From Candidatus Omnitrophota bacterium (GTDB taxonomy: Bacteria; Omnitrophota; Gorgyraeia; 1-14-0-20-64-10; JACQQZ01), in NCBI GenBank assembly GCA_016206755.1, contig JACQQZ010000027.1, positions 1-10,993 on the forward strand: DNA of 10,993 nt, written 5' to 3'. The notes under the pieces were generated by a model, which saw nothing but the letters and a program-made list of their open reading frames with translations, made no database searches and was not told where the DNA came from. Both the position numbers and the translations under genes were made by a program. This document shows, in pieces, positions 424-6,907 of this stretch. Positions within the stretch are counted from its first letter, which is position 1. Each line of letters opens with the position of its first letter.

Positions 424-2880
424 TTATAGCATACCGCCGTATACATCTTCTTCCGCCTGAGACGTCCGGACGACTTCTTCCAATCCTGCCGTTGCCGAAT
501 TCCCAAACTGCTTCCAGATGTTACCGGCAATGGTATAAACGGCAGCTCCGTCGGCCGTCCCCACCCTTTCGTCTTCATCCTGCCACCATCGCGTTGAAAT
601 GGGCAAAGTGGTTGCAACGCCCTGTCTGCGGATGAAATCACCCGGTTGGGTTGCATACCCTGCCAGGGCAACCTGCAATTCCTCACCTCGATGCCCGTAC
701 CATTCCACCAGCGCATCGTAGACATGAGGCAACAAACCCCAAAAGAGATCCCCGGTGTCTTTCAACTCATTCCACTCCAAGATGGAGCCCCCATCTCCGT
801 GATCGTGCAACGCCGTCAACAGGTCTAGGGCGGCCTGACGGGAGCGCCGGCCCGCCAACAAGGAGAGGATGGGGGACAGAGACTTCGAAGCTTTGATTCT
901 GCGCAAAAAGGACGCGTCTTTCTCAAGCAGCCATTCGCGTAAAGCTGCCCGGGTGTCTCCGTCCGCCAATACAATCCGCAACAGGACTTGCCGGCGATCC
1001 AAACGCAAATTTTCCGTCCATGCATCAAAAGGATCCATAAAATCTCCGTCGTGAAAAAATTGGGAGCTCTCCCGGTCAAGAGCATCCAAAGACAGCTCCA
1101 TCTCCTGCTCGGAACGCAGCAGGATGCGCCCCTGCCGGCGCATTTCAACAAGCCATGGCAGCAGCTCTGCGCCCAATTGCTGCGAAGCGGCCGGGATATG
1201 GGAACGCAGGTACTTTTCCAATGCCTTGAATTGCGCATTCGGCTGAGATTGGCGAATCCGGTCAATGGATTCGTGGATCGGCTCCTCCGGCGCAATGGCT
1301 CTGAGCAAATGAAGCAGGCGTTCTCCGGGAGCAAGAACTGTTTCTTGCTCGGACCCCGGCGGCGCATCGCCGGATTGCCGATAATCTGTGTTGAGATTGT
1401 GAACGGAAATCCCGATCCGCTCATCCTTTAACCAAACCACCTGGAGATTTTCAGGGTATCGTTCGGATGACACATGGGCCGCTAAAATCTGCGCGTCTGA
1501 CCCAAGGGACAACACAGGAAGATCTGCCGCCTTCCCGCTCCAAAGAAAATACCGATGAAGCCGCCCATCGACAACGACGTACGCCATCTCTTCGCTGACG
1601 GCAAAAGTCTGGACGCCGGCCGGCAAAGAATTGACCAGGACCTCGCCCTCAGAACCCCTGAGTAAGTCAATGAGGCGAATCGATGCGGATTCTTCACCCG
1701 CAACCAAGGCGTACAAATTATTGCCGTTGGGTGAAAAAGCCAGCGCACGCACACCTCTAGGCAAAAGGGCAGATTCTCCGTTGATCAATTGTCCTTTAGA
1801 AGGATCGTACGCCTGCAATACAGCTCCTTTTGGAGACTCAACGACGGCAAAGAACCGGCCGCCGGGGGAAAAGGTGGCCGCCACGGGAACGCCCCCTTTT
1901 TCCATCTGAAGAGTGATCGGCGGACCGCCTCCTTGCGGGACAATCACCGTAGGATTGGAAGGATACACGCGATACACGCGTTGATCTCCTGCATCAAGCC
2001 GGAGCGCAGCTAACGGCCTCGGAATCGGCGGAAGCGGCGTTGGGGCTACAGGGGGGCTCAACGAAGCCAAGTCAGCGTTGCGGCCATCGCGGACTGACTT
2101 TGCGATTCCCCTCAAATGATACTGGACGATTTGCCGGTCCAATAAAATGCTTCTTTCTAAGAACTTCTGAATGTGCATTCTCTGTTTCCTGAGATAATTC
2201 GGATCCCGGAGTTTCAATGGTTGCCATCGCCAACCCTCAGAAGTGCCTACCAAGACGTCGCGAACAACGCTCCAGACATCGCCGCATTGGACTCCCAAAT
2301 GAACACGGGCGCGGTCGGTCCCCGCCCAATCCCCCCAATCAATCTCGGAAGAAACCACAAACCACCACACATCGAGACTGATCCCCGAGGGAGGCCGGTA
2401 CGGATCGGGGCGCCGCAAATCTTCCCACATGGCCCAGGCGTAAGGAGAGAGGGCAACTTGAAGGGACGTGACCATTGGGGGCGCATTCGCTTGATAGTGC
2501 TTCCAGAGATCGAGAATGTGCTGCCGGCACTCACCCAATGCCCGCCCTGTAGGTAAACTCGGCAAAGCAGTCACGGCACCGTGTTGGATCAACGGATCAA
2601 GAATGGTGTTGATTTGCTTCCAAAATTGAGGCAGGGCGTTTCCAGACAAACCGTAGGGATGTGAATCAAGATGCTTGCCGGACAGCCGCGACCAATCCTG
2701 ATTGAGAAACCACTGCACCACCTCCCGGTCGCTGGGCCGTTCCTCCAATCCGGCAGCGCGGCGCAATTCCGAAAGTATCTGTGGAGACTGCTCGATCTGT
2801 TGGGCTTTAAGGGCGTAAGCCGGTGAAAAAGAAGCGAGGGTAAAAGCAGGAACCACGAAAGAAACAACAAGCTTACGCAT
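424..2880 (-). CDS. Exported protein of unknown function, 818 aa, with beta-propeller-like centre
   Basis: I do not recognise this protein. The frame is open from 2946, but the ATG at 2880 is preferred. It gives a clean signal peptide (MRKL, a hydrophobic stretch to about residue 20, cleavage probably after AYA at 21-23), overlaps the upstream stop as ATGCGTAA, and has AGGA some 11 bases upstream. Domains as read: AGLEE at 43-47; a Trp-rich region 50-265 (for example DVWWF at 170-174 and IDWGDW at 180-185); a Pro-rich linker 276-290; a region 290-500 with repeated blade-like strands such as AATFSPGGRFFAVV and ALAFSPNGNNLYAL, typical of WD40/YVTN propellers; a charged helical region 515-760; and a second TAGLEE at 797-802, 16 residues before the end. 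It probably acts outside the cytoplasm, together with the upstream gene to which its translation seems coupled. Function unknown; the propeller call is moderate. Confidence 0.85.
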   Translation of the reverse strand: MRKLVVSFVVPAFTLASFSPAYALKAQQIEQSPQILSELRRAAGLEERPSDREVVQWFLNQDWSRLSGKHLDSHPYGLSGNALPQFWKQINTILDPLIQHGAVTALPSLPTGRALGECRQHILDLWKHYQANAPPMVTSLQVALSPYAWAMWEDLRRPDPYRPPSGISLDVWWFVVSSEIDWGDWAGTDRARVHLGVQCGDVWSVVRDVLVGTSEGWRWQPLKLRDPNYLRKQRMHIQKFLERSILLDRQIVQYHLRGIAKSVRDGRNADLASLSPPVAPTPLPPIPRPLAALRLDAGDQRVYRVYPSNPTVIVPQGGGPPITLQMEKGGVPVAATFSPGGRFFAVVESPKGAVLQAYDPSKGQLINGESALLPRGVRALAFSPNGNNLYALVAGEESASIRLIDLLRGSEGEVLVNSLPAGVQTFAVSEEMAYVVVDGRLHRYFLWSGKAADLPVLSLGSDAQILAAHVSSERYPENLQVVWLKDERIGISVHNLNTDYRQSGDAPPGSEQETVLAPGERLLHLLRAIAPEEPIHESIDRIRQSQPNAQFKALEKYLRSHIPAASQQLGAELLPWLVEMRRQGRILLRSEQEMELSLDALDRESSQFFHDGDFMDPFDAWTENLRLDRRQVLLRIVLADGDTRAALREWLLEKDASFLRRIKASKSLSPILSLLAGRRSRQAALDLLTALHDHGDGGSILEWNELKDTGDLFWGLLPHVYDALVEWYGHRGEELQVALAGYATQPGDFIRRQGVATTLPISTRWWQDEDERVGTADGAAVYTIAGNIWKQFGNSATAGLEEVVRTSQAEEDVYGGML

Positions 2881-5800
2881 CCGAGAGAAGTTCCTGAGCG
2901 GCTCGCACGGCATTCTGCGCTGCCGGCCAATCCGCGACACGAACATCCTCCAATCGGGCGAGCTCTATCAAGATACTTTGAGATCCCACCGGCAACAACA
3001 CCAATTGCAGCAGTCGATTCCCAAAAAGAGATGGAAGATTTGGTTTTCGTCTTTCGGTCATATAATCTACATCCGATGCATCTCCTAAGCGTCGGCAAGC
3101 TTCCTCGATATGCGCCAAAGTTGGATTTGGACCTGTCACGATAACATCCCGTTCGTCCATCTTCAAAGAATCTACCAGCAAACGCCGTTGCGCCTCCGTT
3201 TCAACAAAAAGAACGGTTCTCCCCGAACCTTGACTTTTCGCCAACAGCGGCCCCAATCCCGATGCGGTTATCTCCGGAGCAACAATACGAGCGCGGGGCT
3301 GGAATCGCAGATCCGCCCGGAGATTGTGCGCTCGGAATTGCGCAACCTTTTCTTCCAATCCTGATGAAGCGCTTAAACTTTGACCGACCAGATCGGTGAC
3401 AATTTCAGGAGTGGCTTCATCTTCTTGATCAAGCAAACCAACGCTTTCCCAAATTGCAGTCAGCGCCGCATTGACGCCGACTCTGCCCTCTCCAGAAAAA
3501 ATATCGCTCACTTTCCTGCGAATCGCTGCGATGATTTGTGCCGTTTGTTTTTGGTCGAAGCGTCCCGCCATCTGATCTGCAATTGCCTCCACCAAGGGGC
3601 GGTCGACAGAAGCCATTTCATTTCCGACTTCAATAGCACGTTGGCTGATTTTGCTTTGAAGCGCTTCTTCCACCTTGTCCGCTGATTGTGCTGCTGCGTC
3701 TGCTTGCCACTCGGCCATCGGATCATCCCCACCACGACTGCGTCTCTGTTCCTTTTTCCGGCGTTGGCGGCCGGACGCAGCGACCTCGCGATGTTCTGCT
3801 TTTCCTCGTCTGCGAGCAGCCAATCCTTGCAATTCCTCTTCGGCTTCCCCCCTGAGTCTCTGTACTTCCCCATGACCGATAATTTGCCGAGGGTGTTCTC
3901 TGCTGCACTGCAAGATGGTATCGGCAATCATTTCAGCCAATCCTTGCAACTCGCCAAGTACATATGCCCGAAGACGAGTTGCCTCTCCTTGCTTTTGACG
4001 ATTTTCCCAATCCACTCGAACAGTCTCCAAGCGCCCGTCGAGTCCATCCAAATGCCGACGTGCCTGCGCCACAGTCCGACTGGCTGTCACAGCTGCCTTG
4101 CTTCCAAGTTCAGAGATTGCAGCCCGTTGCTGCTCAATTTGCAGAAGCTGCCGCTGGCGCGCCAATTCAGCTGCCGCTTGAGTAGCTGCTGCGGCTGCTT
4201 CTGCGTTGGCCAACTCTTGCGCAGCGGCAGCTTCTGCCTGCTTCCTCAAGCGATCTTCCTCCTGTAGTTGTCTTTCATATGCCTTCCAGGCGTTCAAAAG
4301 ATCGACCGTGCGGCGGCGGGCGGCATCTTGTCCAGGAAACCATGCCCTGACAAACTGCTCGACCTCAGTTGCCCGATCTTGACCTGCCGTTTTAAGCACT
4401 CGCGCAATGAAAGCCCGAATGGTTGCTTCTGAATCAGCGGGTGGTTTGGGCGCAGGCGCTGCAACTTCTGGCTGTTGCGGGGCTTCTTCTGCAAAAGCAT
4501 CGATTTTTACGGGGACGAATAATCGCTCGACAAGAACACGGGCCATCTGCTCGCCGCCCAGCCGGATGAGGCGAAAAGCCGCATTGGTTATCTCGACATC
4601 CTTGTCCTCGGGACTTCTGGCCTTGGCAATGATTGCGACTTCACGATTGGCACGAACCCGCATCGTACCGACCCAATCCTGAGAAGCCTCAACGGCATCC
4701 TCAGGCAGATTTTTAAGTTGAGTTTGAAACATTGAAACGGCTCTACCGGGAAACTGGTTGCCGAACTGGGTAATCCATGGCGCAACTTTTCCGGGGTCAT
4801 TCGGAGGCCGGGCGGTTCGCAGGTACTGCTCCACAGCATCCCGAAATCCCTGATACTGCTTTTCCCACTCGGCCTTAAAAGACCATCTCTGCGCCAACTT
4901 CATGAGATCAACGGGACGGTAAACGCGCAAAGCGCCATTTTGTGTTGCAGCGCCCAAGTAAATCTCCGGATGACCCTCGATCCGCATGGCGCAAGCTGCG
5001 GCATCTTCAAAGAAGCTGTGTATCTGCTCTACATTGGGATGACCACTCACAGACGTGTAGACAAAGACAATGCGATCTCCGGGCTGGTACCATTGCTGCA
5101 ATAAGGAACTAAAGCGTGCGGTAAAACTCAGGGGCATCGCGTAAGATCCCCCGCCCTCGACAAAACGCCGGGGAGAACCGTCGGCATTTAAGAACAAAAC
5201 TCCGGCGGCTCCCAATTGAACATTGCTGGCATGCCGTTGCCCTGATTCGATTTCCTGGGCTGCATCGGCCAACGCATCTGCTGTGGCCTCTTCAAATTCA
5301 ACTTGGACCACGTTGCCGGTCAAGCTGACTGCTTGCGCATCCAATTGTTCAATTTGCTGAGGCGTCAATTCCTGATCGCAAAAAGCTCTTAATTCTCGCA
5401 ACCGGCCAAGCCGCGCATTTCGCAACGCATCGTAATAATGACGGGGCGTAACATCCATCGGAGCCCCTTGAAGCATGCGTTGAGTTTCAATTTCGTGAAT
5501 GGCGATGTGAATCTGATCTACGATCCAAACGACCGCTTCCACCGAAATGTTTTGATCAACGCCGGCTGTACTTTCCAACCATCGATCAAGCATCCATTGG
5601 CAAACAGGCCATTGCGCCAGTTGGCTGCGATGAGGTTGCAAAATTGCGCGTACTGCAGCCGCGGACACCTCTCCATTTTGGGCCGCTTCATGCAACGCCC
5701 CAACAATTTCGCGGCGCATTTCAAATGATCTTTCCTGATTTACATCGGCCTGACGGACGACTTCCAGGTAGTTCTGTACCTTATCTCCAGCCAGGCGAGT

Positions 5801-6907
5801 GGCAAAATTTCTACCCTGGGCATCGACGTCATTCAGCAATCGCTCCAAAACATCCAGAAGGGCTTTGTCGTAATCCAATCCGCTCCCATTTTCCATCTCC
5901 AAAAGATTGGAGATCTCACGGATGAGCGGGTGCCGTTTGGCTGCCTGAAGGCCCCCTGCGTTCATGATGATATTCGGCACAACCCAGCGTGGCGGCAGAG
6001 AAGGCAAAACCACCGCAAGATCTGGTTGCCCAGTGCCCGGGAAAGGAAACGCGATCATCGAAATAGAATCCGGAGCAATGTCCCGACTGTCGGAAGTTAC
6101 TCGCACCCGATCACGGTCTGCGCGGAGAAAAGCGTGGACAACTTGATTGGGGCCAATATAACCCTTCAATGCGCGTCGCACTTGCTCAGCCAGAGCAGTT
6201 TTCATGAACTCTTCCGGCGACTGAACCGGCCCCGCAGGAGGCGGCTCCGCAACGGAACCTGCCGGTGTTGAAGAGGCGGCGGCTTGAGGAACAGCATCTG
6301 CTTCAACATTTGGAGTGGGAACCGCTCCCGCGGACTGAGCAGGAAGAGGGCCCGCTTCGGAAACAGGTGGCCGCTGCCGAACAGGGCCTGCCCAGGCAAT
6401 GCCTGACAAATCGCCCGATTCAATGGCTCGGCGCAATTGAGCGCGGCCTTCTCCGGTAGCTCCCAGCCGGGCCAAAGCTTCCCGCCCCAAGAAAAGAGTG
6501 CCCATCGGCCCCTGCCAAGCGGCGGCGCGAATCTCGCCGTCATGAACCAGATAAATCTCATTTTTAGCCATACGGACAACGGGAAGAATTTCTCCGGCCA
6601 GGATGCTACCCCCTCGTTGTGGCCCACCTGCCAGCGCTTCGGCTATAGCGACATTATCGGTATGCCACTGGTTTCCTTCTCGCCAATGAATCTGGTTTTG
6701 AGGATTAGCAGAAGCGTGCTCAAGCAGATATATTTCTCGCTCATCATCCGATTCCTCCAACCCGGCTTCCATTTGGCCGCGGATGACGGGAGATTGCGGA
6801 ACGCGCAGGGTGCCGGAAGCCCACAATTCCGAGGGGGTTATTAAAGAAATAATAATCCGCGCGGCAAGCAGGCGGACGAAAATACGGTGCGTTGGTCGTG
6901 ATGTCAT
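2873..6907 (-). CDS. Large exported protein of unknown function, 1344 aa, multidomain
   Basis: I do not recognise this protein as a whole. It begins with a signal-peptide-like segment (basic to residue 17, hydrophobic 18-25, cleavage probably after LWA at 28-30). Then follow AGLEE (48-52); a small region 55-170; a Pro/Ala-rich linker 175-232; a helical and mixed region 235-555; a segment 560-665 that reads like a JAMM/JAB fold with a decayed motif (SGHP at 621-624, S631, E634); a Pro/Ala linker 805-825; a long Ala/Glu/Gln/Arg-rich helix, probably coiled coil (872-935); a highly basic stretch (1031-1060, with RRKKEQRRSR); a helical region 1065-1180; SSGLEE (1181-1186); and a C-terminal alpha/beta domain (1187-1344, with TVLFVETEAQ). 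A good promoter lies just upstream, but no Shine-Dalgarno sequence precedes the ATG. Coupled to the 818-aa gene downstream. Function unknown; coding status well supported by length and protein-like composition. Confidence 0.87.
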   Translation of the reverse strand: MTSRPTHRIFVRLLAARIIISLITPSELWASGTLRVPQSPVIRGQMEAGLEESDDEREIYLLEHASANPQNQIHWREGNQWHTDNVAIAEALAGGPQRGGSILAGEILPVVRMAKNEIYLVHDGEIRAAAWQGPMGTLFLGREALARLGATGEGRAQLRRAIESGDLSGIAWAGPVRQRPPVSEAGPLPAQSAGAVPTPNVEADAVPQAAASSTPAGSVAEPPPAGPVQSPEEFMKTALAEQVRRALKGYIGPNQVVHAFLRADRDRVRVTSDSRDIAPDSISMIAFPFPGTGQPDLAVVLPSLPPRWVVPNIIMNAGGLQAAKRHPLIREISNLLEMENGSGLDYDKALLDVLERLLNDVDAQGRNFATRLAGDKVQNYLEVVRQADVNQERSFEMRREIVGALHEAAQNGEVSAAAVRAILQPHRSQLAQWPVCQWMLDRWLESTAGVDQNISVEAVVWIVDQIHIAIHEIETQRMLQGAPMDVTPRHYYDALRNARLGRLRELRAFCDQELTPQQIEQLDAQAVSLTGNVVQVEFEEATADALADAAQEIESGQRHASNVQLGAAGVLFLNADGSPRRFVEGGGSYAMPLSFTARFSSLLQQWYQPGDRIVFVYTSVSGHPNVEQIHSFFEDAAACAMRIEGHPEIYLGAATQNGALRVYRPVDLMKLAQRWSFKAEWEKQYQGFRDAVEQYLRTARPPNDPGKVAPWITQFGNQFPGRAVSMFQTQLKNLPEDAVEASQDWVGTMRVRANREVAIIAKARSPEDKDVEITNAAFRLIRLGGEQMARVLVERLFVPVKIDAFAEEAPQQPEVAAPAPKPPADSEATIRAFIARVLKTAGQDRATEVEQFVRAWFPGQDAARRRTVDLLNAWKAYERQLQEEDRLRKQAEAAAAQELANAEAAAAATQAAAELARQRQLLQIEQQRAAISELGSKAAVTASRTVAQARRHLDGLDGRLETVRVDWENRQKQGEATRLRAYVLGELQGLAEMIADTILQCSREHPRQIIGHGEVQRLRGEAEEELQGLAARRRGKAEHREVAASGRQRRKKEQRRSRGGDDPMAEWQADAAAQSADKVEEALQSKISQRAIEVGNEMASVDRPLVEAIADQMAGRFDQKQTAQIIAAIRRKVSDIFSGEGRVGVNAALTAIWESVGLLDQEDEATPEIVTDLVGQSLSASSGLEEKVAQFRAHNLRADLRFQPRARIVAPEITASGLGPLLAKSQGSGRTVLFVETEAQRRLLVDSLKMDERDVIVTGPNPTLAHIEEACRRLGDASDVDYMTERRKPNLPSLFGNRLLQLVLLPVGSQSILIELARLEDVRVADWPAAQNAVRAAQELLSDA

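Follow-up and report, generated by a model that had tools for sequence, protein, structure and literature searches.

GLEE, a short word repeated along the exported modular proteins of one Omnitrophota order and a candidate processing signal

The 10,993-nucleotide stretch of DNA analyzed here (the window; Candidatus Omnitrophota bacterium, assembly GCA_016206755.1, contig JACQQZ010000027.1; GTDB lineage Gorgyraeia; 1-14-0-20-64-10; JACQQZ01) encodes two adjacent proteins, P1 and P2, each with an apparent signal peptide and two copies of the word GLEE. They belong to a class of often giant proteins in which the pentapeptide [AST]-G-[LM]-E-E recurs along the chain, and among the genomes sampled the enrichment of GLEE is restricted to one Omnitrophota order. 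The reading we favor, at a probability of a little over 0.4, is that the pentapeptide is a protein-level signal of exported modular polyproteins, cut by a processing protease. That some single trans-acting factor reads it we consider quite probable.

A first-pass annotation of the window had pointed to four [AS]GLEE copies in these two open reading frames (ORFs), and all four lie where it placed them, on the - strand (Table 1). About 0.013 copies would be expected in both proteins (scaled from 0.12 AGLEE and 0.06 SGLEE in 29,539 residues), in agreement with its estimate of far less than one. Its vague impression of similar motifs in other Omnitrophota proteins was also right, the motif being characteristic of one order of the phylum. 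In the genome of the window (G000; 1.05 megabases (Mb) in 165 contigs; the eleven genomes of the order are G000 to G010, higher numbers denoting genomes outside it), the [AS]GLEE DNA pattern has 41 matches against 5 for a reversed control, and the core pattern 79 against 31. GLEE occurs 40 times in the stretches of this genome that were read, and the eleven remaining arrangements of its letters occur 0 to 3 times each. When the 4-mers of giant proteins are ranked without bias, GLEE comes out on top in G000 (38 observed, 1.06 expected), G004 (52 and 2.3), G003 (17 and 0.8), G008 (17 and 0.5) and G010 (15 and 0.5). In the smaller samples from G001 and G002 it was present and not first, no word passed in G006 and G007, and it was not among the ranked words of G017 and G113, which have motif-free giant ORFs and belong to other orders.

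Across 160 copies, the residue ahead of the glycine is A (97), S (31) or T (23), more rarely V (5) or G (4), and the residue behind it is L (146) or M (14); the G and the EE were fixed by the search itself, and the flanks show weak bias only, being P/A-rich upstream. The GMEE variant has 104 matches against 4 in the control, summed over the 11 genomes. G[LM]EE is found 225 times in 90,811 residues of class ORFs and 10 times in 132,822 residues of 342 other ORFs, with 5.5 expected in each; because membership in the class is defined by the motif (here and for the G005 shift, spacings and C-termini below), the ratio is inflated for the class, some of the ten other occurrences look like cut or missed class members, and the counts describe these stretches only, which were selected for motif or profile matches. 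The ORFs were called mechanically, so the backgrounds contain some false ones. Chance, or a composition biased toward Glu, Leu, Gly and Ala, deserves almost no credence as a source of the word. It is consistent with the near-expected rate in other ORFs and with a reversed control that is imperfect, small excesses over it occurring outside the order (G152, 16 against 2; G081, 11 against 0). The control, the letter orderings, the 4-mer ranking and the class against other ORF counts nevertheless reject it, as does a density outside the order of at most about 12 matches per Mb.

A search of 99 genomes, 11 of them from the order, gave [AS]GLEE and control matches of 44/8 in G001, 61/6 in G002, 86/23 in G003, 167/15 in G004, 46/10 in G006, 173/15 in G007, 71/14 in G008, 20/5 in G009 and 65/23 in G010. 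Ten of the eleven genomes thus carry about 22 to 102 matches per Mb, the exception being G005 (13/18). A wider sample of the phylum comprised 384 genomes, six from the order and 378 from outside it; among the latter the maximum was 24 matches with a control of 15, and the highest density, as read from the table, was about 12 per Mb. A phylum-wide motif is rejected by the low counts and densities in these 88 and 378 outside genomes.

G005 carries a modified word. [AST]G[LM]E occurs there at 48 sites against 2.5 expected, followed by A (17), S (7), G (6), T (5) or E (4); E follows the same four residues in 38 of 46 cases in G000, 46 of 48 in G003 and 50 of 50 in G004. The internal copies of this one genus have moved to GLE[ASTG], a pattern with 130 matches genome-wide against 46 in the control, or about 76 per Mb. 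Use of this form by outgroups was considered and rejected, the highest count seen outside being 73 against 45 in G028 (about 30 per Mb); the ratio is higher, on small counts, in a few genomes of other orders (G189, 23 against 3; G142, 25 against 4). In G002 it is the third place that is looser (L 11, A 4, Q 3, M 3).

The four copies in the window all use GG[AG]-TTG-GA[AG]-GAA codons, as had been noted in the first reading, and the proposal drawn from this, that the similarity extends to DNA, fails in general. Among the G000 copies every one of the four Gly codons occurs, as do five codons for Leu and both for Glu, with Leu encoded by TTG 27 times, CTG 5, CTT 3, CTC 2 and CTA once in the stretches read; in G004 the Leu codon is mainly CTG. 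Since synonymous codons vary, the motif is conserved at the level of protein. At the L/M position NTG codons are more frequent than in other Leu-Glu pairs (127 of 143 against 614 of 990, six genomes summed), perhaps because the site alternates with Met; the excess is seen in G000, G003, G004 and G008, not in the small G001 sample, and is non-significant in G010. A DNA or RNA element such as an uptake word, a recombination site or an internal start, read only incidentally as GLEE, could leave an NTG bias, and M/L alternation would suit internal starts. We regard such an element as very improbable, since the codon variety rejects a DNA-level word in the main, Val, expected from GTG starts, is rare in third place (GVEE, 0 to 2 per genome sample), and, within the stretches read, the copies keep to the reading frame and cluster in a single class of proteins.

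Most proteins of this class appear to be exported. Judged by a crude rule, signal peptides are present on 37 of the 48 ORFs with the motif and on 65 of 276 others (Fisher, 1.8e-12); the rule is home-made, and of the 11 failures P1, L032, L039, L090 (13461), L061, L091, L057 and L068 look signal-peptide-like by eye. The usual start of a motif ORF is a signal peptide followed by [ATSG][LFMV][RK], with the first copy 5 to 33 amino acids (aa) further on in nearly all members; the [AT]LR pattern is loose, and the last match ahead of the motif was taken. Several genera share a longer leader at the first copy, (A/T)LR(P/Q)xNAGMEE(S/N/Q), often followed by P (for example L034, L069, L095, L096, L097 and L141). 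Many class proteins have no Pfam match. The domains found between or beside copies in the rest include mannitol-1-phosphate dehydrogenase with GNAT (L039), 4-alpha-glucanotransferase with starch synthase (L052), PfkB with an aminotransferase (L053), PGM/PMM (L057), FBPase with HAD (L061), GPI (L033), transaldolase (L054), GcvT (L069) and, flanked by copies at 541 and 893, a WD40 propeller (L060). Three of these putative enzyme domains were aligned to solved enzymes. A sigma-70 region 3 match lies in L068 (L068:1-3786, -), a protein with a signal-peptide-like N-terminus; separately, the start of L085, in a motif-free giant ORF of G017, is sigma-factor-like by eye.

In 18 proteins with Pfam matches there are 78 copies, and not one falls within a match, where 15 would be expected (P about 1e-8); this comparison covers the best stretches and proteins with a match above cut-off, and includes an interval of L060 (729-884) for which the propeller model scored under its own cut-off and which was retained since WD40 does pass. 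Homology bears on the placement as well. Two polyproteins, from G003 (5615 aa) and G004 (6145 aa), are 58% identical over 2,759 columns. Their homology starts at residue 1507 and 73, respectively, with an AGLEE that is internal in G003 and stands behind the protein's own signal peptide in G004. Further along, a single GLEE in G003 (4645) corresponds to two in G004 (3273 and 3573) that enclose a module of about 300 aa, nucleotidyltransferase-like by eye; the homologous segments stop 11 residues past the motif and resume 2 residues ahead of it. The C-terminal modules of two different G004 proteins are homologous from GLEE onward (36%), and in P0003 the order is phosphoglucomutase, SAGLEE, ROK kinase, SGLEE, a part that is repeat-like by eye, TGLEE and a C-terminal domain. 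On these alignments GLEE marks the seams of module gain and loss and of fusion and fission, as seen in the one genome pair G003/G004. The counts proposed in the first-pass annotation, made in this genome and its relatives, showed the motif strongly enriched in exported proteins, where it lies outside domains and at module borders; neither a chance frequency nor a lack of positional preference was found.

Between homologous proteins, nine distinct aligned sites keep the word (10 when counted as BLAST pieces) with a flank identity of 5-77%. A word kept amid diverged flanks, together with the internal shift in one genus, argues that GLEE is also read as a signal, and the fact that many internal sites shifted together suggests a single reader. 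The same evidence bears on the idea that the word is a fossil, derived from the N-terminal leader (ALRPxNAGMEESP), with internal copies marking fusion or recombination joints that have no present function. Such an origin would fit the N-terminal copy having the richest context, the G003/G004 junction being an internal GLEE in one protein and a leader GLEE in the other, an NTG excess as expected of a site descended from or alternating with ATG, and C-terminal copies, which it does not predict, not being clearly above chance (below). The intact word at nine sites, the synonymous codon variation and the internal copies that moved together in one genus point instead to continuing selection, and we consider the fossil explanation unlikely.

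The other end of the class proteins is also distinctive. The last residue is nonpolar in 60 of 63 (A 39, L 11, V 9, M 1) and charged in none, compared with 44 nonpolar and 42 charged among 145 other ORFs of at least 400 aa; the class definition makes no use of the C-terminus, and the 63 include homologues, so the P-value overstates their independence. A C-terminal domain of about 125 aa was found with a profile built from five proteins, which matched 24 sequences (E no higher than 0.1) from 10 of the 11 genomes (L106-L129). Alignment A3 holds 21 of these, each ending within 10 residues of the stop; L115 (G001) and L125 (G003), unrelated by eye, and L120, cut at a contig end, were left out. The A3 profile matches 10 of 11 genomes of the order (G005 among them, G001 not) and gives one marginal match (E 0.0097) in 186 other genomes, so far placing the domain with confidence only in this order. 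Its model (m57906eb00037; predicted local distance difference test score, pLDDT, 87.9) predicts an alpha/beta fold, for which a PDB search gave no convincing relative. The P1 C-terminal segment is a borderline case, aligning with A3 over 39 columns at an hhalign P of 0.04, with no hidden Markov model match among the matches listed and a low-confidence model of its own (pLDDT 51.6); P2 is a non-match (P = 0.52) with no sign of the domain.

In the mechanism we favor, the signal peptide would export the polyprotein, and a dedicated extracytoplasmic factor would recognize the pentapeptide in exposed linkers and cleave at it, so that the N-terminal leader is trimmed away and the modules are set free. 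A further handle, used in sorting or by a PDZ-type protease, might be provided by the shared C-terminal domain together with the nonpolar last residue. Processing is favored because the copies act as interchangeable seams, sit where trimming of a leader would be expected and, in G005, take a protease-site-like form (small residue, L/M, E, small residue) that we take to resemble 3C- or GluC-type sites. Alternatively, no cutting would take place, and GLEE could be a short linear motif by which disordered linkers dock on a scaffold, chaperone or export receptor, multiple copies giving avidity. We think this possible and somewhat doubtful. Docking would be at home with the tight pairs, with copies inside the C-terminal domain, one of them on a predicted helix, and with the one-genus shift, which suits any trans-acting reader; it does not require exact placement at seams or the gain and loss of modules between copies, and no receptor was identified. 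Of the roles first suggested for the motif (a tag, a linker for an extracytoplasmic protease or a recombination seam), the seam is borne out in module gain, loss, fusion and splitting, and a role as a signal, acting in cleavage or in docking, can be argued.

Several observations weigh against cleavage at the pentapeptide. Spacings below 30 aa, which cleavage alone does not need, make up 24 of the 215 between copies, and some stretches of more than 1,000 aa have no copy at all. A few copies lie within the C-terminal domain (L112, L116, L119), and the domain model places its copy in a helix, which would make a poor cleavage site. Copies within 30 aa of a Pfam edge number 11, not significantly different from the 8.0 +/- 2.4 at random positions outside domains. 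The first-pass annotation had seen the second copy as a C-terminal boundary, and those of P1 and P2 do lie 158 and 16 aa from the end; class-wide, a copy falls in the last 25 aa of 6 of 33 complete proteins against 3.1 expected, which is not clearly above chance. This last result counts against processing and for a fossil, and without crowding at edges or C-termini the claim on placement is limited to "outside domains" plus the evidence from homology. The exact word is not kept at 6 of 15 sites aligned between members of the order, as GVEE (G002/G006), GLPS and a gap (one repeated-module pair in G003/G004), and two GLEA and one SPLE (G005/G008). It is also unconserved at five further sites: GGED between G006 and the outgroup G017, one glycogen-synthase pair in G005/G113, and three in ordinary enzymes or transporters. 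The shift in G005 is not uniform, 4 of 8 first copies still reading AGMEE where internal copies have drifted. No reader protease was identified, and the PDZ family tested, S41, is not specific to the order. An expanded S41 set was rejected, each of the 11 genomes having a single copy, and with S41 in 65 of the 69 Omnitrophota genomes tested it cannot alone explain an order-specific motif.

S41 proteases are of interest because of the C-termini of the class. PMC7481392 reports nonpolar C-termini as a preference of Prc/Tsp proteases and also names substrates without such tails; the class resembles Prc/Tsp/CtpA substrates in its 60 of 63 nonpolar ends and differs in that S41 is not confined to the order. 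The C-terminal domain of type IX secretion (PMC4804311) offers a parallel, many members of the class likewise carrying a conserved C-terminal domain; the new domain is modelled as alpha/beta, not as a beta-sandwich. Omnitrophota giant ORFs have been described as domain-poor and of poorly understood roles (PMC10066038). The phylum, size and paucity of domains agree with the class treated here, and the part of that paper at hand describes no motif, seam or C-terminal domain. A literature search, whose coverage excluded most subscription journals and bioRxiv, found nothing joining Omnitrophota with GLEE or a short linear motif, and of the papers containing AGLEE, no listed title recognizably concerned this motif.

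Comparisons can also be drawn with other short export and processing signals. The apicomplexan PEXEL and TEXEL motifs (RxLxE/Q/D or RRL) lie about 10 to 35 residues past the signal peptide, TEXEL also internally, and PEXEL is cut by plasmepsin V. They share with GLEE a short motif behind the signal peptide in many exported proteins of one clade, theirs being read by one processing protease; they differ in sequence, belong to a eukaryotic secretory pathway and are not at module seams, and we claim no homology. In line with this, the residue two before L, which has to be R in PEXEL, is A, S or T in 151 of the 160 copies and otherwise V or G. Sites cut in polyproteins by 3C-type viral proteases and others likewise place one short word between modules, with small-x-L/M-acid-small as in the G005 form; here, by contrast, the genes are bacterial and chromosomal, the proteins have signal peptides and cleavage is only proposed. 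Sortase LPXTG, PEP-CTERM and rhombosortase GlyGly-CTERM are similar in being clade-wide tags on otherwise unrelated exported proteins; these tags occur once, at the C-terminus, whereas GLEE is repeated along the chain, and neither LPXTG nor a basic tail was seen by eye in the last 45 residues of P1 or P2. To our knowledge no other bacterium is known to set apart the modules of its exported proteins, genome-wide, by a single short word, nor did the papers listed in the literature search show such a case.

In the window itself, all genes are on the - strand: dxr, rseP and ispG (assigned by Pfam), P1, P2 and one ORF cut by the edge. Neither P1 nor P2 has a Pfam family above the family cut-off. 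Both have a signal peptide, [AT]L[RK] and an [AST]G[LM]EE copy within about 35 aa, at least two copies along the chain (two each) and a nonpolar C-terminal residue (A and L, respectively). In P1 the order is signal peptide, TLR, AGLEE, central module, SGLEE and C-terminal segment, ending ...LLSDA; in P2 it is signal peptide, ALK, AGLEE ... AGLEE, ending ...YGGML. The first copy lies about 17 (P1) and 19 (P2) residues past the signal peptide, close to the 20 first estimated; the signal peptide of P1 was missed by the crude rule, which P2 passes. P1 is partly matched in 7 of the 11 genomes of the order, its own included. Other giant ORFs contain parts of its central module (in G007 twice, also in G004), and about 100-165 residues of the module are found in motif-free giant ORFs of other orders (G017, G113). 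For P2, the search of the remaining 10 genomes of the order gave no relative. The end of P1 overlaps the start of P2 (ATG at 2880 or 2946; window 2873-2946), which suggests translational coupling, and in G002 (L134) four motif-bearing ORFs stand in tandem. A giant class ORF adjoins an ORF with an rsmA/ksgA-like start (by eye) in G002 and G004 (L137, L051), and in G002 an S41 protease lies a few kilobases from this pair.

Table 1. P1, P2 and their parts in the window.
Feature	Position	Strand	Basis
P1, exported modular protein, 1344 aa	2873..6907	-	ORF
P1 signal peptide (approximate), residues 1-30, ...LITPSELWA	6818..6907	-	by eye
P1 TLR, right behind the signal peptide; fits [AT]LR of other members	6803..6811	-	loose pattern
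P1 GLEE copy 1 (AGLEE), GCCGGGTTGGAGGAA	6752..6766	-	DNA pattern search
P1 central module, about residues 190-740	4688..6340	-	homology
P1 GLEE copy 2 (SGLEE), TCAGGATTGGAAGAA, bordering the C-terminal segment	3350..3364	-	DNA pattern search
P1 C-terminal segment, 158 aa	2876..3349	-	
P2, 840-aa ORF from 2946, or 818 aa from ATG at 2880	424..2946	-	ORF
P2 signal peptide (approximate), MRKLVVSFVVPAFTLASFSPAYA	2812..2880	-	sequence; crude rule passed
P2 GLEE copy 1 (AGLEE), GCCGGATTGGAGGAA	2740..2754	-	DNA pattern search
P2 GLEE copy 2 (AGLEE), GCAGGATTGGAAGAA, 16 aa ahead of the C-terminus	475..489	-	DNA pattern search

The motif provides an internal grammar for the giant proteins of one order, showing where modules start and end. 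It unites otherwise unrelated giant proteins as one exported class and predicts a reader. The sugar-metabolism-type domains found in this class (FBPase, phosphomannomutase, 4-alpha-glucanotransferase, mannitol-1-phosphate dehydrogenase and others) lie downstream of apparent signal peptides, so that their site of action comes into question. A tentative possibility is a dedicated export-and-processing pathway in these uncultured bacteria. Enzyme modules, many of them for sugar metabolism, would travel behind one signal peptide, separated by the pentapeptide and cut by one lineage-specific protease; the C-terminal domain that is often present, with the nonpolar tail, would direct them to the surface of the cell, to a compartment inside it or to a partner cell. 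Such a pathway would combine export of the PEXEL kind with a bacterial version of viral polyprotein processing.

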